Positions 27,052-44,348 of a stretch of DNA of 64,000 nucleotides are shown here, piece by piece (positions within the stretch are counted from its first letter, which is position 1; every line of letters starts with the position of its first letter). The position numbers were made by a program, and so were the translations under genes. Location: assembly GCF_004403305.1 (NCBI RefSeq), contig NZ_SOHE01000069.1, forward strand, positions 62,001 to 126,000, read 5' to 3'. This stretch comes from Cryobacterium frigoriphilum. Lineage in GTDB: Bacteria > Actinomycetota > Actinomycetes > Actinomycetales > Microbacteriaceae. The notes beneath the pieces are model-generated. The model saw only the letters and a program-made list of their open reading frames with translations. It did no database searches and was not told the origin of the DNA.

Positions 27052-27055
27052 TCGC

Positions 27056-28551: not shown

Positions 28552-29420
28552 TTTTTCTCAACGCACTGATCCAGGGAATTCTGCTGGGTGGCCTCTTCGC
28601 CATGGCAGCACTGGGACTCTCCATCGCCTTCGGTGTCCTGCGCGTGGTGAACCTCGCCCACGGCGAGATCATGACGCTCGGCGCCTATCTGGCCTACCTG
28701 TCATTGTCGGCCCTCGGGCTCAACGTCTGGATGAGCCTGCTGATCGTGGTGCCGGCCATGGGCGTGGTCGGCTACTGGGTTCAAAGGCTCATGCTCCAGC
28801 GTGCTCTGCGCCTCAGTGAGCTGTCGCCGCTCCTGGTCACCTTCGGTCTCGCGATCATGATTCCGAACGCGCTCGTCGAGGTCTTCTCCAACAATAAAAA
28901 GCCCCTCCCCACAGGGGACCTGGCCGTGCAGAGCATCACCATCGTCGATGGCATCACGGTCGGTGTGCTGCCGTTGCTCACGCTGGTTGTCGCCGTCGTC
29001 CTCATCGCGGGCATGCAACTCTTCCTCGCCCGTACCAAAATGGGGCGCTACATGCGCGCTGCCGCCGACGACTCGGACACCCTGCGCCTGATGGGTATCG
29101 ATTACCGCAAGGTCTATGCCTTCGCGATGGCCATCGCCTTCGGTATCGCGGCGCTGGCCGGGGTCTTCTTCGGCATCCGCCAGGGGGGAGTGACGCCGTT
29201 CGACGGCCAGCTCACCGTGCTGTTCGCCTTCGAGGCCGTGATCATCGGCGGACTCGGATCGCTCTGGGGGACCCTCGCCGGCGGCATCGTGCTCGGTGTC
29301 GCGCACTCACTGGCCGGGCAGATCAGCCCCGACCTTCCACTCCTGGTGGGGAACCTGGTGTTCCTCGCCATTCTCGTCTTCCGTCCGACCGGCATCGTCC
29401 GAAGCAAGGTGGCCGCATAA
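28548..29420 (+). CDS. Branched-chain-type ABC transporter permease, LivH type
   Basis: The 290-residue membrane protein has about eight hydrophobic segments and the LivH hallmarks FAMAALGLSIAFGVLRVVNL with HGEIMTLGAY at the N-terminus. The coupling-helix region RYMRAAADDSDTLRLMGID and the C-terminal VIIGGLGSLWGTLAGGIVLG block are also present. Start and stop overlap neighbours in the ATGA and TAATG manner. It forms the translocation path with the LivM-type permease that follows. Confidence 0.93.
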   Translation: MIFLNALIQGILLGGLFAMAALGLSIAFGVLRVVNLAHGEIMTLGAYLAYLSLSALGLNVWMSLLIVVPAMGVVGYWVQRLMLQRALRLSELSPLLVTFGLAIMIPNALVEVFSNNKKPLPTGDLAVQSITIVDGITVGVLPLLTLVVAVVLIAGMQLFLARTKMGRYMRAAADDSDTLRLMGIDYRKVYAFAMAIAFGIAALAGVFFGIRQGGVTPFDGQLTVLFAFEAVIIGGLGSLWGTLAGGIVLGVAHSLAGQISPDLPLLVGNLVFLAILVFRPTGIVRSKVAA

Positions 29421-30463
29421 TGACTACTCTCACCGCTGCATCCTTTCGCGTCGACCGGTACCAGAAGCGAGCGCTCATGGCGGGGGGTGTCTCCGCCGCC
29501 ATCTTCGTCGCGCTCGCCGCTGCGCCGTATCTGCTCGACCCCGCTATCACCAGTTCCTGGATCAAACTGTTCTACCTGATCACCCTCGCCACCATGTGGA
29601 ACCTGCTCGCCGGGTACGCCGGAATGGTCTCCGTGGGGCAGCAGGCCTACATCGGCCTCGGTGCCTACGGGGTCTTCGTCTTCAACGACCTGGGATTCGA
29701 CGCCTACAGCAGCGCTCTCATCGCGTCGATCGCCGTCGGTGCGATTGCGCTGCCGCTGTCCTTTGTCGCCTTCCGGCTTCGCGGCGGGTACTTCGCCATC
29801 GGAACGTGGGTGATCGCGGAGGCCGTGCGGCAGATCATCATCCGCTTCGATGAACTCGGTGCCGGTCGCGGGCGCAGCATCTCGACCTATACCGGCGACC
29901 CTGTTTTTCGCAACCTGTTCACGTACTGGCTGGCCCTGGGCATCCTGGCTCTCGCACTCATCGTCACCTTCTATCTGCTGCGCAGCCGCATGGGAATCGC
30001 CCTGCAGAGCATCCGTGACAACGAGGTGGCGGCGCGCGCGCTGGGAATCAACGTCAGCCGCACGAAGCGTATCGTCTTCACGATCGCGGCCATGGGCGCA
30101 TCACTGGCCGGTTCCGTCATCTGTATCCAGGCCATCGGGGTTGCCTCCCCGAACCAGATCTTCAGCGTGAGCTATTCGGCGTTCATGATCTTCATGGTCC
30201 TGATCGGCGGCATCGGCACCATCGAAGGCCCGATCGTCGGAGCCGTCATCTACTTCGTGATGGATTTCTACTTCAGCCAGCTGGGGTTGTGGTATTTGGT
30301 TGTTCTCGGCCTACTGGCCATCCTGGTCACGCTCTTCCTTCCGAAGGGCATCTGGGGCGCCATCCATGAGCGGTTCAACATCTCCCTGTTCCCGGTCGGC
30401 CACCGCATCGTGCCCATTGCCGACCACATTCCGACGAAAGTTCTGAGCAATGCCGACGTATGA
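29420..30463 (+). CDS. Branched-chain-type ABC transporter permease, LivM type
   Basis: The 347-residue protein has about nine hydrophobic segments and LivM features: MWNLLAGYAGMVSVGQQAYI near residue 55, the FRLRGGYFAIGTWVIAEAVR segment, and the coupling region SIRDNEVAARALGINVSRTK (about 196-215). A C-terminal GGIGTIEGPIVGAVIYFV block completes it. The ATG overlaps the LivH-type stop. The C-terminal cytoplasmic tail (after about 315) is short and polar. It completes the importer; the downstream SDR starts at or within its stop. Confidence 0.93.
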   Translation: MTTLTAASFRVDRYQKRALMAGGVSAAIFVALAAAPYLLDPAITSSWIKLFYLITLATMWNLLAGYAGMVSVGQQAYIGLGAYGVFVFNDLGFDAYSSALIASIAVGAIALPLSFVAFRLRGGYFAIGTWVIAEAVRQIIIRFDELGAGRGRSISTYTGDPVFRNLFTYWLALGILALALIVTFYLLRSRMGIALQSIRDNEVAARALGINVSRTKRIVFTIAAMGASLAGSVICIQAIGVASPNQIFSVSYSAFMIFMVLIGGIGTIEGPIVGAVIYFVMDFYFSQLGLWYLVVLGLLAILVTLFLPKGIWGAIHERFNISLFPVGHRIVPIADHIPTKVLSNADV

Positions 30464-30477
30464 GGAAGCGGGACACA

Positions 30478-31308
30478 ATGGGAGATTTTGACGGCAAGGC
30501 CGGCCTGGTATCGGGTGCGGCCGGGGGAATCGGTCGCGCAACCGCGCTCGCTTTCGCCCGGGAGGGGGGCAGCGTCGTCGTCGCCGACCTCGAAGCGCTC
30601 CGGCCGCAGGCCGAGGAGACGGTGCGCCTCATCACCAGCAGCGGCGGTTCGGCCATCTTCGTGCCGACCGATGTCACTCGAGCCGCAGACGTCGAGGCAC
30701 TCGTCAACGCGGTGGTCGAAACCTACGGATCCCTTGATTTCGCGCACAACAACGCGGGCATTCTCAAGGTTGGATTCACGGCGGAGATTGACGAGGCCGA
30801 TTTCGACCAGATCATCGCGGTCGACCTCAAAGGGGTTTGGCTGGCCATGAAATACGAGATCCTACAGATGCAGAAGCAGGGTGGCGGAGCAATCGTGAAC
30901 ACGGCGTCGGAGGCCGGTCTGGTGGGCACGCCCCTCGCGGGTCCCTACGTCGCGGCCAAGCACGCGGTTGTCGGTTTGACCAAGACTGCGGCCGGCGAAT
31001 ATGCGAATCAGAATATACGCATCAATGCCGTCGCACCCGGAGCCATTGAGACGCCGATGATCACCGACCTTCCCCAGCAGGCTCGGGATTCCCTGCTGGC
31101 ACCCCAGCCACTGCACCGTTTCGGAACGGCCGACGAGGTAGCGGATGCCGTTCTCTGGCTGGCATCGTCCCGGTCATCCTTTGTCGTCGGCGCCATCCTG
31201 TCCATTGATGGCGGGGCGACGTCGAATGCCCAGTCGTACAGCAGTGAGAACAGCCCGCCATCGTCAGCGGTGGTCGATGCCGAGACCTCACGCACGATCA
31301 ACGTCTGA
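30478..31308 (+). CDS. Short-chain dehydrogenase/reductase in the transporter operon
   Basis: I prefer ATG 30478 ([17 protein letters not shown]) because GAGGAAG lies upstream; an ATG at 30460 overlapping the permease stop would add six residues. The 276-residue classical SDR has the GAAGGIGRA cofactor motif, NNAGI (about 87), catalytic Ser in [10 protein letters not shown] (about 142) and YVAAKHA (Tyr and Lys about 155-159). A C-terminal tail beyond IDGGAT adds roughly 25 polar residues. It would oxidise an alcohol or reduce a ketone with NAD(P). Operon membership suggests it acts on the imported compound, for example converting a secondary alcohol to the ketone used by the carboxylase cluster; this is inference. 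Confidence 0.9.
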
Positions 31309-31325
31309 AAGGAACTCTGCTGCTC

Positions 31326-31924
31326 TTGGAAGGCAAAACAGCGCTCGTCACGGGGGCGGGGGCAGGGATCCGTCGTGCCATCGCCCTGAGGCATGCGGCC
31401 GAGGGGGCCCGGGTCCTCGCTTCCGATATCGACGACGAGGGGGGAGCGGCAACCGTCGACCTGATCCGGGCGGAGGGTGGGACTGCGGTCTACCAGCATG
31501 CCGATGTGAGCTCCCTCGGTGACAACGAGAGTCTGGTCGCCGCCGCTCTGGACCACTGGGGCAGACTCGACATCGCCTGCAGGCCATCGTGAACATCTCG
31601 AGCATTCTGGGCCAGGTCGCCTTCACGGGCGTCGGCCCCTATATCGCCGCCAAGCACGGCGTCGTCGGACTCACGAAGAGTGTGGCGCTGGAATACGCGG
31701 CACAGGGCATTCGCGCGGTGAGCGTGGGCCCGGCATTCATCACGACGGGTCTGGAGAATCAACTCGACGAGGTGTCCCGGCGTGGTCTGGTGGCCCTGCA
31801 TCCCGCCGGGCGGATGGGCGAACCGAAGGAGGTCGCCGAGCTGGTCTCCTGGTTGAGCAGTGATCGCGCGTCCTTCGTCAACGGCGGCTATTTTCCCGTT
31901 GATGGCGGATACCTGACGCGGTAA
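31326..31924 (+). pseudogene. Second SDR gene with internal deletion and frameshift
   Basis: The 5' part reads [20 protein letters not shown] to GRLDIAC and stops at 31592. The 3' part, in another frame from about 31589, reads [20 protein letters not shown] with the catalytic Tyr-x3-Lys region and ends normally in VDGGYLTR. The segment between (NNAGI and about 40 more residues) is missing at the junction near 31580, and the glycine motif has Arg where GIG is expected. It is therefore a dead copy lying just after the intact SDR. The 3' end is well preserved, so the loss is probably recent. Confidence 0.82.
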
Positions 31925-32051: not shown

Positions 32052-32084
32052 CTGCTACTGCTACTGCTACTGCTGCTGCTGCTG
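32052..32084 (-). repeat. CTGCTA/CTG triplet repeat at the ligase stop codon
   Basis: Three CTGCTA units run into five CTG units. On the minus strand these encode five Gln codons followed by TAG, then further CAG-TAG pairs. The stop codon is part of the repeat, so unit gain or loss would vary only the poly-Gln tail. Confidence 0.75.
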
Positions 32085-34079
32085 GGCCAGGTAGTTCCGG
32101 GCCCGGTCGATGAACCAGTCGACGGCATCGGGATTGGCTAGAGAGCCGCGGTTGATGGCCGTCTCGGGGCTGTGGCCCGTGAACAGCTTCTTGATCGGCA
32201 CCTCGATCTTCTTCGAGGCGTGGGTGACGGGTACCGCCGGCGCCTGAACGATCTCATCCGGCACGTGTCGGGCCGAGGTCAGCCGCCGGATGGTGCTGCT
32301 TATGGTGGCCGTGAGCTCGTCGGTTAGCTCGCTCCCCGCATCAAGCACGACGAACAGCGGCAGGTAGTAGCCACCATCCGCTTGCTCAAGCCCGATGACC
32401 AGGGATTCCTTGACCTCGGGCACGTGCTGGAGTGCCGCGTAGATGTCTGCGCTGCCGAGGCGCACCCCGCCGCGGTTCAGTGTGGCGTCTGACCGGCCAT
32501 GCACGGCGAACCCACCGGTCGGTGTCTCTGTGATCCAGTCGCCCTGCACCCAGACGTTCGGAAACGTCTCAAAATAGGAACTTCGGTAGCGGGAGCCGTC
32601 GCCGTCACCCCAGAAGAATACGGGCATCGACGGCATGGGGCGGCGAATAACCATCTCGCCCAGTTCACCGACGACCCGTTGCCCAGATTCCGACCACGCT
32701 TCGACCGCAACACCCAGAAGCGGGCCCTGAAGCTCGCCCAGACGCACCGGTTCCAGCGGGTTCGACCCGATGAAACCACTGCAGATGTCGGTACCACCGC
32801 TATCGGAGCCCAAATGAACGTCGCGCTTGAGGTGGTCATGTACCCAGAGCCACGTGGAATCGGGGAGGGGGGATCCGGTCGACAGAATCGACCGCAGTCT
32901 GGACAGGTCCCGTGAGGGCACCGGGGCGATGCCGGATTTTTCGACCAGAGACAGGTACGCGGCACCGGTGGCGAACATCGTCGCCCGGGTCAGCGCAATC
33001 ACGTCGAACTGACGATCCGTGCGCCCAAACATGGGGGATCCCGAATAGGTGACGACCGAGGCCCCCGACATGAGGTTGTTGACCAGGGTGTTCCAGACCA
33101 TCCACGAGGTGTTCGCCGCGACGTAATAGCGATCACCCGGCCCCATGTCCTGGTTGAGCCCGGTGCCTTTCAGAGCCTCGAGCGTGATGCCGCCATGGCC
33201 GTGCACGATACCCTTAGGTTTTCCTGTCGTGCCGGACGAGAAGAGCACCCAGAGCGGATGTCCGAACGCCACGCGCTGGTACCGGGGCTCGACCGTGTCA
33301 GTCAGCAGGCCCGCGAAATCGAGGCGACCAGCCCCGAGTTGGCCGGTGCCGTGGGGGCTGCGCAGCAGAATCGTGTGCGTGCGTTCGGGCAGGCCGGCCT
33401 CGACCTCGGCCAGATAGTCGAGGCGGTCGAAGTACTTGCCGTTGAACTGGTAACCGTCCACGCCAATCAACAGTTTCGGCTGCAGCTGGCGAAGACGCTC
33501 GAGCGTGGCTGCGGCCGACAGGTCTGGTGAATTAATCGTCCAGATGGCGCCGAGGGAGGCCGTCGCCAGCAAGCCGATGATCGCTTCGGGCACGTTGGGT
33601 AAGACGGCGGCGACGCGGTCACCCTCGCCGATTCCCAGCCGGCGCAGGTGGTCGGCAAGCGAAGACACCCGGGACTCCAGCTCTCGCCAGGTCAGTTCGG
33701 TCATCGCGTCATCTTCCTGGATCGTCAGGATGGCGGTGGAATCTGCGAGCTCGGGGTTGGCGGCGTGACGCAGCACGTTTTCGGCGAAGTTGAGTTTCGC
33801 GCGGGGATACCAGACCGCGCCCGGCATCCGTTCCTCCGCGAGTGCGGGCCCGTCGAAGCCCTCGCCCACGACGTCGAAGTACTCGCGGACGGCATCCCAG
33901 AATCCGGACAGGTCGTCGACGGACCACTGCCAGGCTTCCCGGTACGTCGTGAGACCGATCTGCCGGTGTTCGCCGACCCAGGTCATGAAATCCCACAGGC
34001 GTGTTTTGTGCTGCTGTTCGACCGTGGGAATCCAGGTGAGGGGGGCTGCCGTCGCTGTTGCTGGGCTCTGTACTGACAT
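32067..34079 (-). CDS. Acetoacetate-CoA ligase family protein
   Basis: The start ATG 34079 (MSVQSPATA) has AAAAGGAC five bases upstream. The 670-residue ANL-superfamily ligase has the acetoacetyl-CoA synthetase layout: N-terminal WDFMTWVGEHR and AVWYPRAKLNFAENVL, DGYQFNGKYFDRL near 240, P-loop FSSGTTGKPKGIVHG near 300, SDSGGTDICSGF near 430, and GRSDATLNRGGVRLGSADIY near 555, with the C-terminal Lys in SKKIEVPIKK. It activates a beta-keto acid with ATP and CoA. It is the last gene of the carboxylase operon, where it would trap the carboxylation product as a thioester. Benzoylacetate-CoA ligase belongs to the same family, so aryl beta-keto acids are possible. Confidence 0.92.
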   Translation of the reverse strand: MSVQSPATATAAPLTWIPTVEQQHKTRLWDFMTWVGEHRQIGLTTYREAWQWSVDDLSGFWDAVREYFDVVGEGFDGPALAEERMPGAVWYPRAKLNFAENVLRHAANPELADSTAILTIQEDDAMTELTWRELESRVSSLADHLRRLGIGEGDRVAAVLPNVPEAIIGLLATASLGAIWTINSPDLSAAATLERLRQLQPKLLIGVDGYQFNGKYFDRLDYLAEVEAGLPERTHTILLRSPHGTGQLGAGRLDFAGLLTDTVEPRYQRVAFGHPLWVLFSSGTTGKPKGIVHGHGGITLEALKGTGLNQDMGPGDRYYVAANTSWMVWNTLVNNLMSGASVVTYSGSPMFGRTDRQFDVIALTRATMFATGAAYLSLVEKSGIAPVPSRDLSRLRSILSTGSPLPDSTWLWVHDHLKRDVHLGSDSGGTDICSGFIGSNPLEPVRLGELQGPLLGVAVEAWSESGQRVVGELGEMVIRRPMPSMPVFFWGDGDGSRYRSSYFETFPNVWVQGDWITETPTGGFAVHGRSDATLNRGGVRLGSADIYAALQHVPEVKESLVIGLEQADGGYYLPLFVVLDAGSELTDELTATISSTIRRLTSARHVPDEIVQAPAVPVTHASKKIEVPIKKLFTGHSPETAINRGSLANPDAVDWFIDRARNYLAQQQQQ

Positions 34080-34136
34080 CGCTGTCCTTTTCGTGGGTAG
34101 AAGTGGTGTGGGGCTGGCCGGGCGCATCCTGAGCAG

Positions 34137-35027
34137 TCAGTTGCGCCCGGCAGCGGGGGCCGCGGATGCCATCGCGAACCACTGCACCAGTTCGATCATG
34201 CTGTCCACAATAAAATCGGGGCGTTGCTCCGCGGGTGCGGCCGCGGCATCCGCAGCCGAGTGGGTGCCGGTCGTCACGAGACAGCCAAGTGCACCCGCAC
34301 GGCGAGCCATCTGGCATTCAAGCGTGAGGTCGTCGCCCACGATGAGCATCTGAGAGGGGTGCACCTGCAACCGGCGGGAGACGACCTTGATCGCTTCCTC
34401 CGAGGGTTTGCCGAGAACCCGGTACGGGCGTCCGGTGACGTGGCTGAGACCGACCGTGATGAATCCCGAGACGCCCACATTCAGACGTTCCTTCGACGCA
34501 AAGGAGGGGGCATCGGAGGTGCAGTAGAGCTTGGCACCGGCGAGCACAGCCTCGGCGGCAAGCTGAATTTTGTCCTTGCCGAACTCCGTGTCCCAGCCGA
34601 TCACGACGGCCGCCGCGTTCGTGGGTGCGCCAGCCAGCGCCCGGTCAATGTCGATGAGGTTGAGGCCACGACGTTCGAAGTCATCCACGACTCCGCTTCC
34701 GCCGAAAACGAGCAGCGGCAGGTCTGCGTACAGTTCCTGCATCGTTTCCGCGGCGACGACCGCGGGGGTCAGCACCTCGCTGTCGTGGATATCCAGGCCC
34801 ATTGAGCGAAGCGACGCAGCGATCTGAGCGGATGTCTGCATCGAGCCGTTCGTGAACGCTGCGAGACTGCGCCCGGACGAACGCACGAGCTCGATCGCTT
34901 CCGATGCCCCGGGAAGCACGCTGCCGCCGTGGCCGCTGGGACCGTCCGAGAGCACGAGGCATCCGTCGATGTCAAACATGACACCGCGTACCTCCGCGAG
35001 ACGTAATTGAACTTCGGCTGTATTCAT
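34137..35027 (-). CDS. HAD-IIA family phosphatase
   Basis: The ATG at 35027 overlaps the carboxyltransferase stop (ATGA) and has GGAGGA upstream. The 296-residue HAD hydrolase shows motif I VMFDIDGCLVLSDG (about 16-29; nucleophile Asp and DxD), motif II AAFTNGS near 61, motif III Lys in VLGKPSEEAI near 205 and motif IV VGDDLTLECQMA near 226, with the IIA cap between motifs II and III. Relatives dephosphorylate p-nitrophenyl phosphate, phosphoglycolate or nucleotides. Its tight coupling to a dikinase/carboxylase operon suggests removal of a phosphorylated side product or intermediate; the true substrate is unknown. Confidence 0.88.
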   Translation of the reverse strand: MNTAEVQLRLAEVRGVMFDIDGCLVLSDGPSGHGGSVLPGASEAIELVRSSGRSLAAFTNGSMQTSAQIAASLRSMGLDIHDSEVLTPAVVAAETMQELYADLPLLVFGGSGVVDDFERRGLNLIDIDRALAGAPTNAAAVVIGWDTEFGKDKIQLAAEAVLAGAKLYCTSDAPSFASKERLNVGVSGFITVGLSHVTGRPYRVLGKPSEEAIKVVSRRLQVHPSQMLIVGDDLTLECQMARRAGALGCLVTTGTHSAADAAAAPAEQRPDFIVDSMIELVQWFAMASAAPAAGRN

Positions 35028-36604
35028 GACGCTCCTCCGGCCGGCTCGCGGCGCAATTCCACGTTCTCGGCTCCCCGACGCACGGCGAGGTATTTCCATT
35101 TGGGCAGCTTGTGGGCGGCTGCGATGAAGTCCGTGACGCTCGTCACGGGGGTCGCCGCACGAGTTGCTCCGGTGGCGCTCCACCTCGGCGCCGGACCGGC
35201 GGCGAGCATGGCGTCGATCTGATCGCCCGGCAGCACCATGCGCAGCAGCAGTTCCTCTTCGCTGAGGCGACGACCGAATTTCTTACCGTACTCATCGTGC
35301 AGATCGGCCAGGGATCGCTCTACTGGTGGTTGGGCGAGTTCTTTCGCGCGGGGCAGCGAGGCAACCCTCTGCAGCACTTCGGGTGCGATCTCGCCCTCCG
35401 GTGCGCCAAAGTTTCCGAGTACGAATCTGACGACCTCATCCGGGATGCGGCTATAGCGTTCTTCCCCGGCCTTGATGGCCAGCACGTTCATGAGCGCCTG
35501 GCTGCCCACGAACTGACTGAACGGGGTCACCATGATGGGGTAACCCAGGTCGGCCCGCACCCGCCCGGCCTCCTCGATGACGGCGGGCAGGTCATCGAGC
35601 ATGCGCAGCTCGCCGAGTTGGCGCCGCAGGGTCGACATCATGCCGCCGGGTACCTGGTGCACGTGGGGACTGAGATCATACTCGGTCGGAACTCCGGCCT
35701 TCAGCCCCTGAGAGGCGGCAATGGCATAGAGGATGTCCGCTGCCTCGGCCGCCGCGTCGCGGTTGACCTGAACCGGTATGCCGAGGGCGTCGAGGTTGGT
35801 GATGAGGTTTTCCAGGCTGGGTTGAGCGGTCCCGTTGGACAACGGGCCGAGTCCGGTGTGCAGCACGTCGACGCCGAGTTCCGCTGCGGCGAGATAGAGC
35901 TGGGATGCAGCGCCGGTGGTGCAGTGACTGTGGAGTTCGAGGGATTTGGCCCCCACGGCAGCTCGGATGCCCGGGATCAGCTGGCGGGTGCGGTCGATGG
36001 TGAGCAATCCGCCGGGGTCCTTGAGATACACGGAATCGATGAAGGGACTGGCACTGAACAGCCGCGCGTTGCGACTGTAACTCTCGTCGGTGTGCACCGG
36101 GCTTTCGGTGAACGTCACGGCCGCGACGACCTGGGTGATTCCCTCATCGTTGGCCCATTCGGCCACCCTGAGCACGGACTCGACGTCATTCATGGGCTCG
36201 GCAATCTGAAGCCGGCCCAGGCCGTGGCTGGCCATCAACCGCAGCGCCATGCGCATCACGGTCTCGGAGGCCTTGTCCCAGGACATGAAACGCATTCCGG
36301 TCGAAATCGCCGAGAGCGGGGTATTGGGCATGACATCTTTCATGCGCGAAATGCGTTCCCAGGGGCTCTCCTGATGCCACTTCACGCCCATCGACAGGTT
36401 CGTCGAACTGGTGAAGTCGATGGCTTCGTAGCCCACCTGGTCGAGCAGCGGCCCGACCGCTTCGACCATTCCGGTGGTCAGCCCGGTGGCTCCCCACAGA
36501 CTCTGGTTGCCGTCTCGCAGGCTGGTGTCCAACAGACGCACCGGCTGTCGAGGCGCGGCACGATCCTGCCCGGTTTTGGCGTTGTTCTGCGGGGTTGCGG
36601 TCAT
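35024..36604 (-). CDS. Pyruvate carboxylase-like carboxyltransferase subunit with altered substrate site
   Basis: The ATG at 36604 overlaps the biotin carboxylase stop. The 526-residue protein is a HMGL/PYC-OADA carboxyltransferase: LDTSLRDGNQSLWG near 25 (metal Asp, Arg and Gln of the RDxxQS motif), the active-site Lys in YLKDPGGLL near 198 and the metal HxH in LELHSHCTTGAA near 228. A PYC_OADA C-terminal domain follows from about 300. Two substrate motifs differ from pyruvate carboxylase and oxaloacetate decarboxylase: WGGATFD is replaced by FTSSTNLSMG, and the LLRG(Q/A)N motif, whose Arg holds the carboxylate of pyruvate, reads AISTGMRF with Thr at that Arg. The acceptor is thus probably not a 2-keto acid; a ketone would fit. 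Confidence 0.88.
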   Translation of the reverse strand: MTATPQNNAKTGQDRAAPRQPVRLLDTSLRDGNQSLWGATGLTTGMVEAVGPLLDQVGYEAIDFTSSTNLSMGVKWHQESPWERISRMKDVMPNTPLSAISTGMRFMSWDKASETVMRMALRLMASHGLGRLQIAEPMNDVESVLRVAEWANDEGITQVVAAVTFTESPVHTDESYSRNARLFSASPFIDSVYLKDPGGLLTIDRTRQLIPGIRAAVGAKSLELHSHCTTGAASQLYLAAAELGVDVLHTGLGPLSNGTAQPSLENLITNLDALGIPVQVNRDAAAEAADILYAIAASQGLKAGVPTEYDLSPHVHQVPGGMMSTLRRQLGELRMLDDLPAVIEEAGRVRADLGYPIMVTPFSQFVGSQALMNVLAIKAGEERYSRIPDEVVRFVLGNFGAPEGEIAPEVLQRVASLPRAKELAQPPVERSLADLHDEYGKKFGRRLSEEELLLRMVLPGDQIDAMLAAGPAPRWSATGATRAATPVTSVTDFIAAAHKLPKWKYLAVRRGAENVELRREPAGGAS

Positions 36605-38010
36605 GAGACGGCCTCCTTCAGCTGAGCGTCGTGGAACGACGGATCGTTGCGGTGTTCCCAGGCGGGGGCAAACCACGTGGTGCTGACGCCTCCGCGGATG
36701 AAATCTGGGTGTGAGAGTACAAAATCGTGCAGGGGGAGCGTGGTTGTGACTCCCTCGATTACCACCGCTGCGGCGGCGGAGCGCAGGGCCTCGACGGCGG
36801 CGGTGCGGCTGTGGGCGCGAACGATCAGCTTGGCCATCAGGCTGTCGTAGAAGGGCGGAAATTGGTATCCGTTTTCGATGTGGGTATCGACGCGGATGCC
36901 GGGACCGACCGGCCACTCGACGCGGCTGATCAGACCAGGATTCGGCCGAAAGTCCTGGTCGGGGTCTTCTGCGTTGATCCGCACCTCGATTGCCACCACC
37001 GGCGGCACAGGGGGAACGTCGGGCAATTGCGGGTCCAGGCCGAGCGCGAGGCGCAGCTGGGCGGCCACCAGATCGATGCCGAAAGCTTCTTCCGTGACGG
37101 GGTGTTCCACCTGGATACGGGCGTTCATCTCGAGAAAGACGACGTCGTCGGACTCGGTGTCGACCAGAAATTCGACGGTTCCGGCGCCACGATAGCGCAG
37201 CGCCTTGACGAGCGCCCGGGAGGCATCGTGCAGTACCTGCCGGCGGGCCTCGGATAGTCCGGGAGCCGGGCACTCCTCGACGAGTTTCTGATGCCGGCGT
37301 TGCACCGAGCAGTCGCGGTCGCCGAACAGTTGCACGCCGCCGTCTCCGTCGCCGAACACCTGCACTTCAACGTGGCGGGCGGCGGGATAGAAACGTTCCA
37401 GGTAGAGGGCGCCATTTCCGAAGGCTGCCTGCGCCTCGGCCGCGGCCTGTGGGGCCAGTTCGGCAAGCTCAGACGAATTCCGCACGAGACGGATGCCGCG
37501 CCCGCCGCCGCCGTGAACCGCCTTGATGAGCAGCGGATAGCCCAGGGAATCGCCGAGGGCGGCTGCGGAGGTGGGGTCGCTGATCTCCACGGCGACGGCA
37601 ACGGGAACTCCGGCGGCCACCGCGACTCGGCGCGCACTGGTCTTGTCGCCGACGGCGCGCAGGGTTTCCGGCCGCGGGCCGGCGAAGGCGATGTTCTCGG
37701 CTTCGAGCAGTTCGGCCAACTCGGGTTGCTCGCTCAGAAATCCGTAGCCCGCGTGAACTACGTCGGCGCCGGCGTGCATGGCTGCTTCGGCCACGTATTC
37801 CGGCCGCAGGTAGGACTTCGTGGCCTGTGCCGGGCCGATGATGATGACCCGGTCAGCCAGACGGGCTGCCCGTGAGTCGGCGTCAGCAGCGCTCGCCGCC
37901 AGCACGGGGCTGGCTCCGATGCGACGCGCCGCCGCGATGATGCGCACGGCGATTTCGCCGCGGTTGGCGACGAGCACGACGGGAATTTTCGCCGCTGGTG
38001 CACTCGTCAT
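36601..38010 (-). CDS. Biotin carboxylase subunit
   Basis: The 469-residue ATP-grasp protein matches AccC-type biotin carboxylases: LVANRGEIAVRI at the N-terminus, HAGYGFLSE near 86, the glycine-rich loop HGGGGRGIRLV near 166, EVQVFGDGDGGVQLFGDRDC near 214, and EMNARIQVEHPVTE near 291 with the catalytic Glu, Asn and Arg region. It carboxylates BCCP-biotin with ATP and bicarbonate. It overlaps BCCP upstream and the carboxyltransferase downstream by four bases each. The C-terminal extension beyond the BC domain is short, so it is a separate subunit, not a fused acyl-CoA carboxylase alpha chain. Confidence 0.92.
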   Translation of the reverse strand: MTSAPAAKIPVVLVANRGEIAVRIIAAARRIGASPVLAASAADADSRAARLADRVIIIGPAQATKSYLRPEYVAEAAMHAGADVVHAGYGFLSEQPELAELLEAENIAFAGPRPETLRAVGDKTSARRVAVAAGVPVAVAVEISDPTSAAALGDSLGYPLLIKAVHGGGGRGIRLVRNSSELAELAPQAAAEAQAAFGNGALYLERFYPAARHVEVQVFGDGDGGVQLFGDRDCSVQRRHQKLVEECPAPGLSEARRQVLHDASRALVKALRYRGAGTVEFLVDTESDDVVFLEMNARIQVEHPVTEEAFGIDLVAAQLRLALGLDPQLPDVPPVPPVVAIEVRINAEDPDQDFRPNPGLISRVEWPVGPGIRVDTHIENGYQFPPFYDSLMAKLIVRAHSRTAAVEALRSAAAAVVIEGVTTTLPLHDFVLSHPDFIRGGVSTTWFAPAWEHRNDPSFHDAQLKEAVS

Positions 38011-38507
38011 GAGGGGGTGTTCTCGATGATGACGGCGAGCGGCTGGCCGAACTCGATCTGGGCGTTGTCGGCGACCAGGTATTCGCTCAGGATTCCCGCG
38101 CTGCCAGCGGCAACCGGGTTCATGAGTTTCATCACTTCGATGATTCCGATCGTGGTCTCGGCGCTCACCGTGGCACCGGCCTCGATGAAGGGTGCGGCGC
38201 CCGGGGTGGGGCTGCGGTAGAAGACACCGATGATGGGTGCCGTGACAATCGTGCCGTTCTGCACCGGTGCGGCCGGAACGATGGCGACCGGAACGGCTGC
38301 GGCGGGCGCGGTGGTCAGCGCGGGAGCAGCGACGGGAACAGCGAGGGCCGGCGCGGCCGATGCCGCCGGCGTGACGACCTCGGTCGAACGCCCGAGGCGC
38401 ACGCTGACGTCGCCGAATTCGACGGTGGCTGATTCGAAGGAACCGTCATCGAGCTGCGTGACCAGGTCCAGAACGTCCTGCCAGCTCGGGGTCGCGGAGG
38501 TAGTCAT
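38007..38507 (-). CDS. Biotin carboxyl carrier protein
   Basis: The 166-residue protein has an N-terminal helix domain (about 1-40), an Ala/Pro/Val-rich flexible linker (about 45-85) and a C-terminal biotinyl domain with the biotinylation motif EVMKLMN (Lys near 127). It resembles AccB in layout. It carries CO2 between the biotin carboxylase and the carboxyltransferase. It overlaps both neighbours with ATGA junctions in the order dikinase N-domain, BCCP, BC, CT. In this operon it most likely serves the ketone-type carboxyltransferase rather than fatty-acid synthesis. Confidence 0.93.
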   Translation of the reverse strand: MTTSATPSWQDVLDLVTQLDDGSFESATVEFGDVSVRLGRSTEVVTPAASAAPALAVPVAAPALTTAPAAAVPVAIVPAAPVQNGTIVTAPIIGVFYRSPTPGAAPFIEAGATVSAETTIGIIEVMKLMNPVAAGSAGILSEYLVADNAQIEFGQPLAVIIENTPS

Positions 38508-39607
38508 CAGTTGTCACCCTTCGTTGCGGCGGCGACGAAGCCCAGCAGGTTCGCGGTGCCCTTCGTCGTGTTCTTGGATTTTTCTTCCTTGCGCTTCTTC
38601 CAGTTCGTCTCGGGCCGGGACTGAAGCAGCATCACCTTGGCGGTACCGTCGGCGTGGTGCTCGAGAGCCCACTCGATGTCCTGCGGGCAGCCGTAGTGCT
38701 TTTCCACTCGCAGGGCGATCTCGGCCAACTGCAACACCTCTGCTTCGGTGAGGCAGGCGATGTCGCGCCGTTCCACTTCGACGTCACGAAAGAGCACACC
38801 GGTTCCGCCCGGGGCCGGCACGTACTCGTGCGCTTTGGAGGCGATGCGGGTGGTGGTCAGGGTTGGGCCCAGTTTGTTGAGCCAGTATTCATCCGGGGTG
38901 ACTTCGCCGGACACCACGGACTGGCCGAGGCCCCAGCTGGCGTTGATGGCGATGACGGATCGATCGCCGGTGCGCGGGCTGACGGTGAAGGTGACACCGG
39001 CCACGTCGGCGGTGGCCATCAGCTGTACGGCTACCGAGATCTTGGATGCCTCGGAGGCGTCGGCGACGGACAGCTCAGACCGGTACGCGATCGCCTGCGG
39101 GGTGTACAGGCTGGCCCAGCACTCGCGCACCTTGTCGATCACGTCATCCGCTCCGACGACCCAGAGGTAGGTCTCCTGCTGGCCGGCGAAGCTGGCCGCA
39201 TCGCCGTCTTCATCGGTAGCCGAGGAACGCACGGCCACGGGGATGCGGTCGGCGTCGTCGGTGCCCCGCCGCGTCGCCGTCTCGCGGGAGAGTGCGAGAT
39301 AGGCCGTACGGATCTCCTGCTCGATCGCGGCCGGCAGCTCGCTGCCGAGGATCAGGGCGACGGATTCGTTGTGGGCCTGCTGCAGGGATGCGTGGTTCTG
39401 CGCGTCCGCGCCCAGCACGATCCTGAGCAGTTCCTGGCGCAGGTTCGACGCGTCGCGGTAGTCCTCATAGGCATCCACGGTGACCGCGAAGCCGTCGGGC
39501 ACGGGCAGGCCGGCCTGCACCATTTCGCCCAGGCTGGCGCACTTACCGCCCACGAGGGGACGATCATGACGATTGAGTTCGGTGAATTTTCTGGTGTACT
39601 TTCCCAC
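38507..39607 (-). CDS. PEP synthase-like ATP-binding subunit (phenylphosphate synthase beta-like)
   Basis: The start is GTG 39607 with an AAGAAG-rich leader. The 366-residue protein corresponds to only the N-terminal PEP/pyruvate-kinase-type ATP-grasp domain of PEP synthase: VGGKCASLGEMVQAGLPVPDGF near 22, VAVRSSATDEDGDAASFAGQ near 120, INASWGLGQSVVSGEVTPDE near 220, QDIEWAL and LLQSRPET near 320. The His and PEP domains are absent and are partly supplied by the 639-residue neighbour. The same split occurs in phenylphosphate synthase, which uses ATP to give AMP, Pi and a phosphorylated phenol. Here it should phosphorylate the mobile His of its partner. The C-terminal tail is Lys/Thr-rich. Confidence 0.87.
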   Translation of the reverse strand: MGKYTRKFTELNRHDRPLVGGKCASLGEMVQAGLPVPDGFAVTVDAYEDYRDASNLRQELLRIVLGADAQNHASLQQAHNESVALILGSELPAAIEQEIRTAYLALSRETATRRGTDDADRIPVAVRSSATDEDGDAASFAGQQETYLWVVGADDVIDKVRECWASLYTPQAIAYRSELSVADASEASKISVAVQLMATADVAGVTFTVSPRTGDRSVIAINASWGLGQSVVSGEVTPDEYWLNKLGPTLTTTRIASKAHEYVPAPGGTGVLFRDVEVERRDIACLTEAEVLQLAEIALRVEKHYGCPQDIEWALEHHADGTAKVMLLQSRPETNWKKRKEEKSKNTTKGTANLLGFVAAATKGDN

Positions 39608-39703
39608 GGTCTTCTTCTTTCTAGGTGGGTGTCGAGGCCACAGGCAGCGCGCCGTTCGGCGGCCTGTGGAGGTGTGTGGTGGCGGGGGAGCGCCTCGGTC
39701 GGG

Positions 39704-41623
39704 TCAGACGCCGGTGGGCTCGTCCAGAATCGTCACGGTGCCGGCGTTGCCGTCGACACGGATCAGCTGGCCGGTCTTGATGGTGGTGGTCCCGAATCCG
39801 GTACCGACGACGGCCGGCAGGCCGTACTCGCGCGACACGATGGCGGCGTGGCACATGATGCCGCCGATGTCACTGACCGAGGCGCGGATTCGTCCGAAGA
39901 CCGGCGTCCAGCTGGGGCTCGTGACCGGAGAAACCAGGATCTCACCGTCTTGCACGGTGTCGAGCTGGTCGGGGCGCAGCACGACGCGGGCGCGACCCTC
40001 GGCGATGCCGGGGGAGCCGGCGAAGCCCGTCAGCTGGGTTCGGCTGCCACCGCCGTCCTGTGCGGTCAGCCAGCGTTCGACGGTTTCCGGCGTGATGCCC
40101 CACAGCATGATGGTCAACGGCTCGTTGACCTCACCGGGAACCGGACCCAGGGCGGGCGGCGGATTCCAGTTGCTGAGAGCCTCATAGATTTGTTTGCGCC
40201 GTGTGATGATCGCGGGCCAGTGATGCCCACCCTGCGGGTTGCCGCCGGCCGACCAGGCCATCTGCAGGTCGACGATGGCTTCTTCGACCTCGGCCCGACG
40301 CAGAAAGAAAATGTCTTCCACGTCGTTCCAGAATCCCCACTTCTGCATCAGGCTGCTGAATTCGCGTGCCTTGTTCCAGAAGTTGGTCAGGAACCAGTGT
40401 TCGATATAGAAGTTGTGGTTTTCCACGTACGGAAAAACCGTTCGGGACAGGGCCAGGGTCTCGTTGAAGGCGGGAAGGTCTTCCTCGTCGAGCAGCGAGC
40501 GGTAGTGCGTGACGAGTTCGTCTCGTTCCTTTTGGAGCTTGTCGATGGGTCGGGTCAGGTCGTCGCCACCGCGCAGGCGGTGGATGTAGTCGCCGATGGC
40601 CTGGATGGGTAGGCGCAGATCGTCGATCCAACTCCGGTGGGAGTGGTACATGCCAGACCCATAGGAGAAGGAGAACCACGGGTCCTTGCTCACGTCCAGA
40701 GCGCTCAGCCAGGTTTGGCCGGCTTCGGAGTCTGCGAGGTTGCTCAGCAGCTCGGCCTCGGTCGTGGCCGCGATCACCAGCTCGCCGACTCCGAGCTCCT
40801 CGGCCCGGCGCGCAAGCGCCCGCAGCTCGTCATCGGGACGAAACAGCAGCACGTCGACGCCGCTCACCATGCGGGAGATGGTCTGGTCGTCGATTTCCGG
40901 AAAGTGTTCCTTGCACAGAGTGAGGAATTGGAGGTACGCGGCGTAACCCAGGTTCAGGAATTCTGAATGCAGGGTCCAGATCTGATCGCCATGTTCCAGC
41001 AACCGGTGATACGCGACCAGGAGCTGATTGGCCTGGGTCGGCCCGCGATCTTCCGTCACACGCTCCAAGGATTCAAACTCCGACAGCGGTGGAACTTCGA
41101 TGTCGCGCACGGCCCGGATGGCGGTCGTGACCCGGCCTTCCCACTCGGCGTACAGGGCGTCCCAGTTCTGAAAGTAGTAGCCGGCGCGTTTGCCGAACTC
41201 CTCCGCCCGGCGAGCCTGCTCATCGGCGTCGGGGCTGGCGATCGTGGACATGTAGGTATAGCCGTTGATGACACGCACGTCCAAACCCTTGGCCGGCGGC
41301 AGGGCGAAGACGCGGGTGTTGGTCACCCCGGTCCCGGTGAAGGCCCCGTCGATGGTGACCTGGTCGAACGGATACGAGACTTCCGGGTAGTGCAGGGAGT
41401 TGCGAAACCAGGTCTTGGCGGAATCCTCGGCCTGACGCGAGGGCAGAAAACGGTTGTGGTAGGCGTACATGTCCTCCCACCCCTCGGCCCCCTCGGGCGT
41501 CTCGATCTCGTACGGATCGGGGAAGCTGCGTTCCGTCGGTGTGGTGACGTCCGACGACGACGGTTTTGCTGCTGCACCTTCTTCCACTGCATTTTCTTCC
41601 ACTGCATTGTCCGTGGTGGTCAT
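39704..41623 (-). CDS. PEP-utilising His-domain subunit (phenylphosphate synthase alpha-like)
   Basis: The ATG at 41623 has AAAGGAG upstream and heads the operon. The last 100 residues of this 639-residue protein form the swivelling phosphohistidine domain, with GGIMCHAAIVSREYGLPAVV carrying the catalytic His near 596. The first 530 residues are a large helical domain, not the TIM-barrel PEP domain of PEP synthase; it is rich in Trp, Tyr and Phe (for example HNFYIEHWFLTNFWNKAREF) and presumably binds the substrate. Phenylphosphate synthase alpha and rifampicin phosphotransferase use the same logic. The likely reaction is transfer of phosphate from His to an enol or hydroxyl of the pathway substrate. 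Confidence 0.85.
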   Translation of the reverse strand: MTTTDNAVEENAVEEGAAAKPSSSDVTTPTERSFPDPYEIETPEGAEGWEDMYAYHNRFLPSRQAEDSAKTWFRNSLHYPEVSYPFDQVTIDGAFTGTGVTNTRVFALPPAKGLDVRVINGYTYMSTIASPDADEQARRAEEFGKRAGYYFQNWDALYAEWEGRVTTAIRAVRDIEVPPLSEFESLERVTEDRGPTQANQLLVAYHRLLEHGDQIWTLHSEFLNLGYAAYLQFLTLCKEHFPEIDDQTISRMVSGVDVLLFRPDDELRALARRAEELGVGELVIAATTEAELLSNLADSEAGQTWLSALDVSKDPWFSFSYGSGMYHSHRSWIDDLRLPIQAIGDYIHRLRGGDDLTRPIDKLQKERDELVTHYRSLLDEEDLPAFNETLALSRTVFPYVENHNFYIEHWFLTNFWNKAREFSSLMQKWGFWNDVEDIFFLRRAEVEEAIVDLQMAWSAGGNPQGGHHWPAIITRRKQIYEALSNWNPPPALGPVPGEVNEPLTIMLWGITPETVERWLTAQDGGGSRTQLTGFAGSPGIAEGRARVVLRPDQLDTVQDGEILVSPVTSPSWTPVFGRIRASVSDIGGIMCHAAIVSREYGLPAVVGTGFGTTTIKTGQLIRVDGNAGTVTILDEPTGV

Positions 41624-41706: not shown

Positions 41707-41721
41707 TTTCACTCAATGAAA
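41707..41721. promoter_or_regulatory. IclR-like operator, copy 3
   Basis: TTTCAC-TCA-ATGAAA within the longer near-palindrome CTTTTCACTCAATGAAAAG, about 85 bases upstream of the dikinase subunit gene. Confidence 0.78.
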
Positions 41722-41780: not shown

Positions 41781-41795
41781 TTTCATCAAATGAAA
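41781..41795. promoter_or_regulatory. IclR-like operator, copy 4
   Basis: TTTCAT-CAA-ATGAAA is a perfect palindrome 74 bases after copy 3 and 55 bases before the IclR start. Copies 3 and 4 lie between the divergent carboxylase and IclR operons. Confidence 0.78.
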
Positions 41796-41850
41796 TTGAC
41801 ACTAGGGTGAGGTCATCAGCGACTCGCTGGTGTCCGACGAGGAGGTCGAG

Positions 41851-42639
41851 ATGGCTCAGTCCGGTATCTCCGTGCCCGACCAGACCGCAGGGCCGGGCAA
41901 GTCCGTCACCGAGCGGGCGTTCGCCGTGCTCATGTCCTTCGACATGATGCACCGCTCGATGACCCTCTCGCAGATCTCCCGGCGCAGCGGCCTTCCGCTG
42001 GCGACAACATTTCGACTGCTCAACCACCTCGAAGGCATTTCTGCAGTGCAACGGGACACCGGCGGACGTTACGCAATCGGACCCAAAATCTGGGAATTGG
42101 GCATTCTGGCACCCACCCACGACGTGATCGGAATGGGCACCCGGCCACTGTTGGTTCGGCTGGCCGCCAAGACGAACATGATGGTCAGGGTGTTCGTCTT
42201 CAACGGACAGAAGGCCCTGTGTGTTGAGGAGGTACTGGCCAATGGAGCGAGCTCCCCGAGAACCGGACCCGGAACCGTGCTCACCCTGATCGACTCGGCC
42301 GTGGGGCACATTCTCATGGTGCAGATGTCCCAGGCTGATCGCGTCGCACTGCCGCTGACTCGAACGCAGTATTCCCGCCTCGAAGAGCGATTGGCCGTGA
42401 TCGGCGAGCGCGGCTGGGCGCGCCGAACCGACGACGATGGCGACGTGGAATACGCCGTACCCATCTACTCTGACGGGCGCCCACCGATGGCGCTGTCGCT
42501 CAGCACGCCGCCGTCGGAGACATCCGTTCTACTCCGCCACGAGCCACCCATCGACAGACTGATCCCCGAGCTTCGCGGCGTCGCCCGCAGCATCGCGGCC
42601 GTGCTGTCCTCGACAAGAGAGGAATCCGACCATGAGTGA
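41851..42639 (+). CDS. IclR-family transcriptional regulator (first of a tandem pair)
   Basis: The ATG at 41851 is chosen because GAGGAGG lies six bases upstream; a GTG at 41830 is the alternative. The 262-residue protein has an N-terminal winged helix (SVTERAFAVLMSFD..SLSQISRRSGLPLATTFR-type region, about 15-70) and a C-terminal effector domain containing RLAAKTNMMVRVFVFNGQKA and later segments. It is divergent from the carboxylase operon, and two TTTCAY-N3-RTGAAA palindromes separate them. A homologous regulator follows with an eight-base overlap. The pair probably senses the ketone, its precursor or a product. Whether the two form heteromers is unknown. Confidence 0.9.
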   Translation: MAQSGISVPDQTAGPGKSVTERAFAVLMSFDMMHRSMTLSQISRRSGLPLATTFRLLNHLEGISAVQRDTGGRYAIGPKIWELGILAPTHDVIGMGTRPLLVRLAAKTNMMVRVFVFNGQKALCVEEVLANGASSPRTGPGTVLTLIDSAVGHILMVQMSQADRVALPLTRTQYSRLEERLAVIGERGWARRTDDDGDVEYAVPIYSDGRPPMALSLSTPPSETSVLLRHEPPIDRLIPELRGVARSIAAVLSSTREESDHE

Positions 42640-43438
42640 TGAGCCGTACAAGAGTTCCGCCAAGTCCGTCACCGCGCGGGCTCTGGCGGTGCTGGCGGCC
42701 TTCGATGTCGACACACCGCTTCTCTCCCTCAGCCAGCTCGCCCGCAAAGCGGGACTTCCCGTCGCAACCGTGTACCGACTTGCCGGTGAACTCGAGGACG
42801 GACGCTTTCTTGACCGCGACAGCGCCGGGCGTTATGGACTCGGGGTCAGACTCTGGGAGATGGGCCTCCTCACCCCCATCCATGGTCGACTACGCGAGAC
42901 AGCCATGCCGTTTCTGCTCAATCTGCAGTATGAGTGTCGCGAAACCGTGCAGCTGGCGGTGTGCGACGGCACGAACGCCATCTATATCGAAAAATTGACC
43001 TCCGAAATTTCCGTGCCGGTGCAGAGCCGTATCGGTGCCCGGATACCGTTACACGCCTCCGGAGTCGGCAAGGCTTTGCTTGCCTTCAGTTCTGAGGACT
43101 TCACGGAGGCGATTCTCGCACTGCCCCTCACGCAGTACACCCCGGAAACCGTCACCGATCGACGGCTCCTGCTGCGGCAACTCGCGCAGATTCGACAGCG
43201 CGGCTTCAGCCTCAGCCATCAGGAATACCAGCGGGGAGCCAGCTCTCTCGCCGCCCCCGTGATGGTCAACGGAACGGTTCAGGCGGCAATCGGTATCGTC
43301 AGCTACGAACTCAGGACCGACCTGGTTCAGTACGCACCGGCGTTGCTCGGCGTGGCGAGCAGGCTGGCCCAGCGTTTGCAAGATGCGGCCGGAGTCGCGT
43401 ACCCGAGCATCAAAGACCCCATAAGGAGTGCTGAATAG
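42632..43438 (+). CDS. IclR-family transcriptional regulator (second of a tandem pair)
   Basis: The 268-residue protein has the IclR winged helix (SVTARALAVLAAFDVDTPLL, then LSQLARKAGLPVATVYRLAG) and the effector domain (ECRETVQLAVCDGTNAIYIE, RIGARIPLHASGVGKALLAF, RGFSLSHQEYQRGASSLAAP). Unlike the first IclR, its effector domain keeps the canonical P(L/M)HxSxxGKA region (IPLHASGVGKA), so it is the more typical effector-binding member. GAGAGGA lies upstream of ATG 42632 inside the previous gene. The stop overlaps the GTG start of the amidohydrolase gene, so regulators and enzymes are co-transcribed. Confidence 0.92.
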   Translation: MSDEPYKSSAKSVTARALAVLAAFDVDTPLLSLSQLARKAGLPVATVYRLAGELEDGRFLDRDSAGRYGLGVRLWEMGLLTPIHGRLRETAMPFLLNLQYECRETVQLAVCDGTNAIYIEKLTSEISVPVQSRIGARIPLHASGVGKALLAFSSEDFTEAILALPLTQYTPETVTDRRLLLRQLAQIRQRGFSLSHQEYQRGASSLAAPVMVNGTVQAAIGIVSYELRTDLVQYAPALLGVASRLAQRLQDAAGVAYPSIKDPIRSAE

Positions 43439-44316
43439 TGCCATACGAACCCCGGCTCGACATCGACGCGCTGGTCGCAATTGACACCCACGTGCATGTG
43501 GAAGTGGATGATCATGGTCACCACGCATTACCGCAACAACTGGTCGACGCGGCCAGTAAGTACTTCAAGGCTGCCGGGCCTCGGCCCGGACTCGATGCGA
43601 TCGCCGACATGTACCGGGAACGCAAGATGGCGGCGGTGGTGTTCACCGTCGATGCGTCGAGTCACCTCGGACATCCGCCGAACAGCAGCGAAGAGATCGC
43701 ACGCGGTGCCGCTCGCAACAACGACGTTCTGATTCCGTTTGGGTCGGTGGACCCCCACCACGGATCCGCCGCGATTGCTACAGCCCAACGGTTGGTGAGC
43801 GATTTCGGTGTGCGCGGCTTCAAATTTCATCCGAGCGTGCAGAACTTCGACCCGAGCGATACAGAGCACTACCCCCTGTATGAGGTCTTACAGTCGTTCA
43901 ACCTGCCCGTGATCTTTCACACTGGCCAGACCGGAATCGGCTCCGGGCTGCCGGGAGGATTCGGGATCAAGCTGGGACTATCGAATCCCATGCTGCTCGA
44001 CTCGGTCGCGGCCGACTTTCCAGAATTGCAGATCGTGATGGCTCACCCGTCCGTGCCCTGGCAGGACGAAGCGTTGGCGGTCGCAACCCACAAGAAGAAC
44101 GTCTGGATCGACCTCTCGGGGTGGTCGCCAAAGTACTTTCCCCCCAGCCTGGTGCGCCAGGCCAAGTCAATTCTGCAAGACAAGGTCCTCTTCGGCTCCG
44201 ACTTTCCGCTTATCTCCCCGGACCGGTGGATGAAGGATTTTGCCCTGCTCGAATTCGATGACGCGGTTCGCATGAAAATCGTCAAGGACAACGCCGTGCG
44301 GTTGCTGGGGCTCTAG
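43438..44316 (+). CDS. Amidohydrolase family 2 (TIM-barrel) hydrolase or decarboxylase
   Basis: The start is GTG 43438 with AAGGAG upstream, overlapping the IclR stop. The 292-residue protein has the metal-site set of amidohydrolase-2 enzymes: DTHVHVE near 17, KFHPSVQ near 123, HTGQTG near 158, the MAHPSVPW segment near 200 and FGSDFPL near 254 with the catalytic Asp. Family members hydrolyse lactones or amides or decarboxylate aromatic acids. In a ketone-carboxylation neighbourhood it could open or cleave an intermediate of the imported compound. The sequence does not decide between hydrolase and decarboxylase. Confidence 0.88.
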   Translation: MPYEPRLDIDALVAIDTHVHVEVDDHGHHALPQQLVDAASKYFKAAGPRPGLDAIADMYRERKMAAVVFTVDASSHLGHPPNSSEEIARGAARNNDVLIPFGSVDPHHGSAAIATAQRLVSDFGVRGFKFHPSVQNFDPSDTEHYPLYEVLQSFNLPVIFHTGQTGIGSGLPGGFGIKLGLSNPMLLDSVAADFPELQIVMAHPSVPWQDEALAVATHKKNVWIDLSGWSPKYFPPSLVRQAKSILQDKVLFGSDFPLISPDRWMKDFALLEFDDAVRMKIVKDNAVRLLGL

Positions 44317-44348
44317 CGCCCCGCGCGGCCCGGTTCGAAAGGATGACA

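Follow-up and report, generated by a model that had tools for sequence, protein, structure and literature searches.

A predicted hpe operon for growth on 4-hydroxyphenyl methyl ketones in Cryobacterium frigoriphilum

Analysis of a 64,000-nucleotide stretch of the 4.38-Mb Cryobacterium frigoriphilum genome (contig NZ_SOHE01000069.1, positions 62,001–126,000 of the forward strand; hereafter, the window) leads us to consider, with a probability that we put at about 93%, that seven of its minus-strand genes form the hpe operon of a Cryobacterium-type actinobacterium, which would allow the cells to grow on methyl ketones with a 4-hydroxyphenyl ring, 4-hydroxyacetophenone (HAP) being the likeliest of these. 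The locus is a further instance of the Hpe (hydroxyphenylethanone) pathway, published in 2022 for the hpeHICBADEF genes of Rhodococcus rhodochrous GD02 (Dexter et al., 2022; PMC9618137), and not an unknown ketone carboxylase. The original prediction, made from the window alone, knew of no described system with this architecture; that claim falls, because the pathway was described in 2022 and was followed by a structure of its kinase in 2025 (PMC12167813) and by a comparison of three operons in 2026 (PMC13101465).

The HpeI protein of the window is identical at 288 of 365 positions (79%) to the HpeI crystal structure deposited as PDB 9GOJ (PMC12167813). Complete syntenous hpe clusters have been named in Actinomadura macra NBRC 14102 and in a Rhodococcus metagenome-assembled genome (MAG) (PMC9618137), the latter of which we take to be our locus L009. 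In the best tblastn segments, the window proteins are 81%, 77%, 54%, 83% and 79% identical to HpeH, HpeI, the biotin carboxyl carrier protein (BCCP), the biotin carboxylase (BC) and the carboxyltransferase (CT) of A. macra (L010), and 72%, 75% and 62% identical to its phosphatase, ligase and hydrolase (the hpeF candidate); the corresponding values for the Rhodococcus MAG are 82%, 79%, 56%, 81% and 80%, followed by 72%, 76% and 63%. Both loci contain the seven genes in the order seen in the window, with an eighth gene after hpeE and two IclR genes upstream of hpeH. Further features of Hpe systems shared by the window are the two-component dikinase, the BCCP, BC and CT genes adjoining those of the kinase, a NagD-like HAD phosphatase at the sixth position and an acyl-CoA synthetase at the seventh.

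The catalytic motif of HpeH, GGIMCHAAI, comprises Met590, Cys591 and His592 in the window, the counterparts of M579, C580 and H581 in GD02, where the H581Q variant is inactive (PMC12167813). The cysteine that precedes the catalytic histidine in Hpe kinases, at a position occupied by serine in CreH and PpsA (PMC12167813), is present in the window protein, as is the methionine two residues before the histidine. Phylogenetic analysis covered 81 HpeH proteins, namely that of the window and those of 80 loci (L006–L085), which represent the best 80 of 353 confirmed HpeH matches, weaker relatives lying outside the sample. In the resulting tree, the window pairs with L006 of Cryobacterium glaciale, its closest relative in this sample (92% identity), and the next larger well-supported set (18 rows, SH-aLRT 100) includes the A. 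macra and Rhodococcus MAG proteins and leaves the cre-type copies of Cryobacterium outside. The carboxylase accompanies HpeH in 15 of these 18 rows, and the other three end at contig ends.

All seven genes of the original prediction were confirmed in family assignment and coordinates (Table 1), and the split dikinase, likened there to phenylphosphate synthase, was borne out by a 639-residue PEP-utilizers protein and a 366-residue PPDK_N protein. Five of the genes are indeed joined by overlaps, but the ATGA type ascribed to all of them was found at just three of the four junctions when these were read directly (BCCP/BC, 38007–38010; BC/CT, 36601–36604; CT/HAD phosphatase, 35024–35027), the HpeI/BCCP junction being a 1-base TGATG at 38507. 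The gap between hpeH and hpeI measures 96 bases, and the phosphatase and ligase genes do not overlap. Table 1 of the GD02 paper labels HpeB as the carboxyltransferase and HpeA as the biotin carboxylase, with quoted masses of 49.3 and 57.4 kDa (PMC9618137); judged by gene order and by the masses in the window (49.9 kDa for BC and 56.8 kDa for CT), the two labels would have to be exchanged.

In the proposed mechanism, HpeI would bind ATP and phosphorylate His592 in the swivel domain of HpeH, which would pass the phosphate to the phenol hydroxyl of the substrate; BC would carboxylate the biotin of BCCP at the expense of ATP and bicarbonate, and CT would move the carboxyl group to the methyl carbon of the phospho-ketone. 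HpeD would then strip the phosphate to yield a 4-hydroxyphenyl-beta-keto acid, HpeE would form its CoA thioester and the candidate HpeF would split the thioester into 4-hydroxybenzoate and acetyl-CoA, whereupon PobA and PcaGH, encoded elsewhere in the genome, could take 4-hydroxybenzoate onward via protocatechuate. These steps have been shown in the orthologues, those of HpeE and HpeF through growth conferred by the whole eight-gene GD02 set, and we infer them from there for the window; regulation by IclR proteins through a palindrome, discussed below, is a proposal made here only.

Because the window proteins match the characterised HpeHI and the A. macra set, the phosphate is very probably placed on the phenol hydroxyl rather than on an enol. 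In the original prediction, an aliphatic or aryl ketone would instead receive the phosphate at its enol oxygen, and the resulting enol phosphate would take up a carboxyl group to become a beta-keto acid. Much of that scheme stands, namely, the split dikinase, a carboxylation that needs ATP and biotin and turns a ketone into a beta-keto acid, and the subsequent CoA activation, and the gene families do fit a sequence of phosphorylation, carboxylation and CoA ligation. However, GD02 HpeHI phosphorylates the phenol hydroxyl of HAP and acetovanillone (AV), giving products that matched synthetic 4-phospho-acetophenone and 4-phospho-acetovanillone, HpeCBA carboxylates these two phosphates, no conversion of the free ketones being detected, and HpeD dephosphorylates the product after carboxylation (PMC9618137). 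Moreover, a separate phosphatase would be superfluous if the phosphate departed upon carboxylation. Phosphorylation of an enol is thus very improbable, and acetone, butanone and isopropanol, also put forward as substrates, lack support, since the pathway requires a ring hydroxyl according to its authors (PMC9618137).

Even less credible is a housekeeping pyruvate or acyl-CoA carboxylase lying beside a PEP-synthase-like neighbour. CT and BC fall within the broad families of pyruvate/oxaloacetate and acetyl-CoA carboxylases, and CT retains the HSH motif and the lysine of LKDPG, but it carries ISTGMR in place of LLRGQN, the motif of pyruvate carboxylase and oxaloacetate decarboxylase. LLRGQN stands there in the four chains compared (one of pyruvate carboxylase beta, one of oxaloacetate decarboxylase and two of transcarboxylase 5S), whereas [ST]TGMRF is found in 29 of 29 aligned CTs, the window included, in an alignment that left out L002, L086 and L087 (copies of the window's own and the sister operon) and matches of <=350 aligned residues. 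The arginine of LLRGQN presumably binds the carboxylate of pyruvate, a role that a literature search did not confirm, and the missing motif argues against pyruvate as the predicted substrate of CT. As a match to pyruvate carboxylase subunit B, the same protein reaches 273 bits, the cut-off being 402, and within the genus a close HpeH (93–100%) is present in just 2 of 57 genomes, one of which is that of the window.

Other carboxylating or phenol-activating systems differ in their gene families: the acetone carboxylase AcxABC and the acetophenone carboxylase Apc have hydantoinase-type subunits, the Cre cluster contains a cytochrome P450 and the Pps/Ppc system a UbiD-type phenylphosphate carboxylase. 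The seven window proteins include no hydantoinase-type or P450 Pfam family and no UbiD-type family, and the neighbours of the kinase genes encode a biotin carboxylase, a step which the Cre and Pps pathways are not known to have. The C. frigoriphilum genome carries a second HpeH copy on contig C89 (L105, G000:C89:94000-110449), together with IclR, P450, ATP-grasp, short-chain dehydrogenase/reductase (SDR), reductase and aldehyde dehydrogenase (ALDH) genes, a cluster with its own split dikinase that we take, from its gene content, to be of the 4-cresol (Cre) type. Assignment of the window to the 4-cresol or phenol (Pps) pathway could invoke the homology of HpeHI to CreHI and PpsAB (PMC9618137) but is hardly tenable in a genome with this separate cluster, in which the P450 gene lies between the IclR and ATP-grasp genes and whose HpeH copy is 47% identical to that of the window.

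The likeliest growth substrate appears to be HAP, because a PobA-like hydroxylase and PcaGH are encoded in the genome and a VanA match is absent; PcaH scores above its cut-off, a second dioxygenase subunit adjoins it and the same cluster encodes a Lyase_1 protein and a CMD/hydrolase fusion. A variant nested within the Hpe assignment would have the same mechanism tuned to another 4-hydroxyphenyl ketone (AV, acetosyringone (AS) or one with a longer chain) or fed by a 1-arylethanol. The intact SDR of a neighbouring importer operon (see below) matches PDB 4ure/4urf, labelled cyclohexanol dehydrogenase in the PDB and presumably the 1-(4-hydroxyphenyl)ethanol dehydrogenase of Aromatoleum, with 189 bits, fourth of 669 sequences, although this match falls within a very large family. 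The palindrome common to the importer/SDR operon and hpe suggests additional substrates, and substrate preferences differ between the sets of Sphingobium SYK-6, A. macra and GD02 (PMC13101465). Given the gene complement favouring HAP, we nonetheless regard such a different tuning as possible but rather unlikely.

Several observations weigh against the assignment to a growth-supporting Hpe pathway. BCCP is the least similar of the seven proteins (54–56% to the two reference loci), and the substrate is deduced from orthologues at 54–83% identity. The PobA-like hydroxylase, at 465.9 bits, lies under the TIGR02360 cut-off of 538.7, and a search aimed at VanA_C, other demethylases not being sought, gave no match in the genome, so that AV could be carboxylated without supporting growth. 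When expressed in strain RHA1, in which the eight GD02 hpe genes enable growth on the ketones (PMC9618137), the six-gene sets of GD02, SYK-6 and A. macra all turned HAP, AV and AS into beta-ketopropionates, but A. macra hpeHICBAD reached 2.3–2.5 U/g on HAP and AV, compared with 97–107 for GD02, and, when GD02 hpeEF was supplied as well, the host grew on AV and HAP with the GD02 set but not with that of A. macra or SYK-6 (PMC13101465). The weak rate and lack of growth of the A. macra set imply that the orthologues demonstrate the chemistry and not an efficient pathway in RHA1. Finally, the operon stops at the ligase gene, without the eighth gene that follows hpeE in the GD02-type order, and the hpeF candidate appears to be placed outside it, in a divergent operon behind two IclR genes. 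The latter gene was named by position, through comparison with the eighth genes of the A. macra and Rhodococcus MAG loci; if this Amidohydro_2 gene is hpeF, the pathway is complete inside the window. The same arrangement is found in C. glaciale, and, because SYK-6 has no HpeF altogether (PMC9618137), hpeF as the eighth gene is a gene-order trait of GD02-type clusters and does not define the pathway.

Linkage of the dikinase and carboxylase genes, the conservation of which the original prediction had proposed to check in gene neighbourhoods, is kept beyond chance: BC and CT share the locus with HpeH in 19 of the 22 top loci (L006–L027; HpeH 55.4–92% identical to the window) versus 9 of the 58 remaining ones (L028–L085), and the three top loci without them (L014, L015 and L025) are truncated where their contigs end, within hpeH or hpeI or ~200 bases past hpeI. 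Within the genus, HpeH copies at ~45–50% are present in 20 of the 57 genomes, including the window's own and G014; one of these copies is in two pieces (41% and 50%) and three have one internal stop. The patchy presence fits horizontal transfer, which the GD02 authors proposed for their own strain (PMC9618137). In all six Microbacteriaceae-type MAG loci (L016–L021), the BCCP gene follows hpeH within ~25 bases and hpeI was not found in the locus, although the MAGs may be incomplete; the sole PPDK_N match in each of these genomes is 43–45% identical to HpeI and has a P450 gene as its neighbour, an arrangement known from cre-type clusters. More distant variants were seen in seven alphaproteobacterial loci (L038, L047, L053, L055, L061, L070 and L080), where the kinase pair is accompanied by BC, CT and HAD homologues (30–51%) on the opposite strand ~4–10 kb downstream and, in six of the seven, by a ligase (39–41%), and in Chloroflexi loci L028, L029 and L031–L034, which combine the kinase pair with a HAD phosphatase homologue (31–36%) and in which no biotin carboxylase was found.

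Convergent to hpe, the window contains an operon for a branched-chain-amino-acid-type ATP-binding cassette (ABC) importer and an SDR, followed by a second, broken SDR gene; the importer genes have the same order in the sister genome, and the promoters of both operons carry a palindrome. With <=1 mismatch, TTTCATNNNNTGAAAA gives six matches over both strands of the window, in four places, whereas 0 of 100 shuffles reach six (mean 0.03). Across the whole genome, TTTCAYTNNRTGAAA occurs in four places and nowhere outside the window: one pair of sites precedes hpeH and another precedes the binding protein gene. The reversed control pattern has no match in the genome. This rarity is post hoc, since these very sites and the upstream regions of relatives served to define the pattern. 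Genome G014 has a site upstream of each of hpeH, the binding protein gene and the adjoining IclR gene. A site lies near hpeH in 14 of the 22 top loci, a count that overlaps the set used to shape the pattern, and in three of them also upstream of a divergent ligase gene; among L028–L085, it was seen in one of 58 (L038), away from any matched gene. The palindrome was not found in L009, L010, L015, L022–L024, L026 or L027, and an inverted-repeat scan did not report the palindromes, its minimum of 12 bases exceeding their arms.

This distribution suggests a two-operon regulon with active uptake, putatively IclR-controlled through the common palindrome. A broader picture, to which we would give slightly less than even odds, is that hpe and the ABC importer/SDR genes are both driven through TTTCAYTNNRTGAAA, to which one of the two IclR proteins probably binds, that the phenolic ketone or a precursor 1-arylethanol is imported with ATP and not by diffusion, and that, in related freshwater Microbacteriaceae with hpe operons devoid of hpeI, HpeH and CreH may share a cre-type ATP-grasp subunit in trans. 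Passive diffusion is named as the entry route in the discussion of the GD02 paper, the main text of which, by term search, does not contain the words transporter, ABC or permease (PMC9618137); the word transporter is likewise not in the main texts of the two later papers (PMC12167813; PMC13101465). Upstream of the region, at 20412–22535, the window also encodes a GmrSD-type restriction enzyme with a RAMA domain.

Table 1. Genes and candidate operator sites of the hpe region in the window
Feature	Position	Strand	Basis or remark
hpeH, kinase alpha subunit (substrate-binding and swivel/His domain), 639 aa	39704-41623	-	PEP-utilizers mobile domain
hpeI, kinase beta subunit, ATP-grasp, 366 aa	38507-39607	-	PPDK_N; PDB 9goj match
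hpeC, BCCP	38007-38507	-	Biotin_lipoyl; MKL biotin motif at residues 126-128
BC, HpeB position, 49.9 kDa	36601-38010	-	Family match and identity to L009/L010
CT, HpeA position, 56.8 kDa	35024-36604	-	HMGL/PYC_OADA
hpeD, HAD-IIA (NagD-like) phosphatase	34137-35027	-	Family match and identity to L009/L010
hpeE, AMP-forming acyl-CoA synthetase, acetoacetate-CoA-ligase-like	32067-34127	-	Start uncertain: alternative ATG at 34079
IclR-family regulator 1	41830-42639	+	60-61% to genes upstream of hpeH in L009/L010
IclR-family regulator 2	42632-43438	+	77-80% to L009/L010
Probable hpeF, beta-ketoacyl-CoA hydrolase, Amidohydro_2	43438-44316	+	62-63% to gene just after hpeE in L009/L010
ALDH, possibly vdh counterpart	44343-45803	+	Aldedh; role suggested by position
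Candidate operator TTTCAYTNNRTGAAA, hpe promoter site 1	41707-41721	.	Pattern searches
Candidate operator TTTCAYTNNRTGAAA, hpe promoter site 2	41781-41795	.	Pattern searches
Candidate operator TTTCAYTNNRTGAAA, importer promoter site 1	25529-25543	.	Pattern searches
Candidate operator TTTCAYTNNRTGAAA, importer promoter site 2	25610-25624	.	Pattern searches
Periplasmic binding protein, branched-chain-amino-acid-type ABC importer	25723-27051	+	Peripla_BP_6
ABC importer ATPases	26987-27799, 27595-28551 (starts uncertain)	+	ABC_tran twice
ABC importer permeases	28548-29420, 29420-30463	+	BPD_transp_2 twice
SDR dehydrogenase, candidate aryl-alcohol dehydrogenase	30460-31308	+	Putative role
Second SDR, broken (frame change, middle stretch gone)	31310-31924	+	Open copy in sister locus L006

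With this locus, the lignin-ketone pathway described in recent years reaches a Cryobacterium-type genome; in the paper library searched by full text, Cryobacterium and acetovanillone did not occur together. It also offers a testable candidate operator and a putative uptake system, for which the word 'transporter' is absent from the main text of each of the three Hpe papers, and the operons devoid of hpeI raise the small question of dikinase subunit sharing.

Among the known systems, CreHI of Corynebacterium glutamicum, acting on 4-cresol, and PpsAB of Thauera aromatica, acting on phenol, are also two-component phenol dikinases homologous to HpeHI, both with the serine before the catalytic histidine (PMC9618137; PMC12167813). 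XccABC of Aromatoleum aromaticum EbN1 is described as a homologue of HpeCBA (45–51%; Table 1 of PMC9618137) and comes from an anaerobic context. AcvABCDEF of SYK-6 is described as homologous and syntenous to hpeHICBAD, this strain being without HpeEF and apparently using VceA/VceB instead (PMC9618137). The A. macra locus has in common with the window all eight genes (54–83% identity for the first seven and 62% for the eighth) and the two IclR genes but differs in the placement of hpeF after hpeE and in that the palindrome was not found there. GD02 hpe agrees with the window in its seven genes and their order, including the split kinase, three-part biotin carboxylase, NagD-like phosphatase and CoA ligase, and also has two putative regulator genes upstream and the four-base overlaps. 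Unlike GD02 hpe, the window has its hpeF candidate in a divergent operon with the IclR and ALDH genes, and its ABC importer/SDR operon carries the same candidate operator as hpe.

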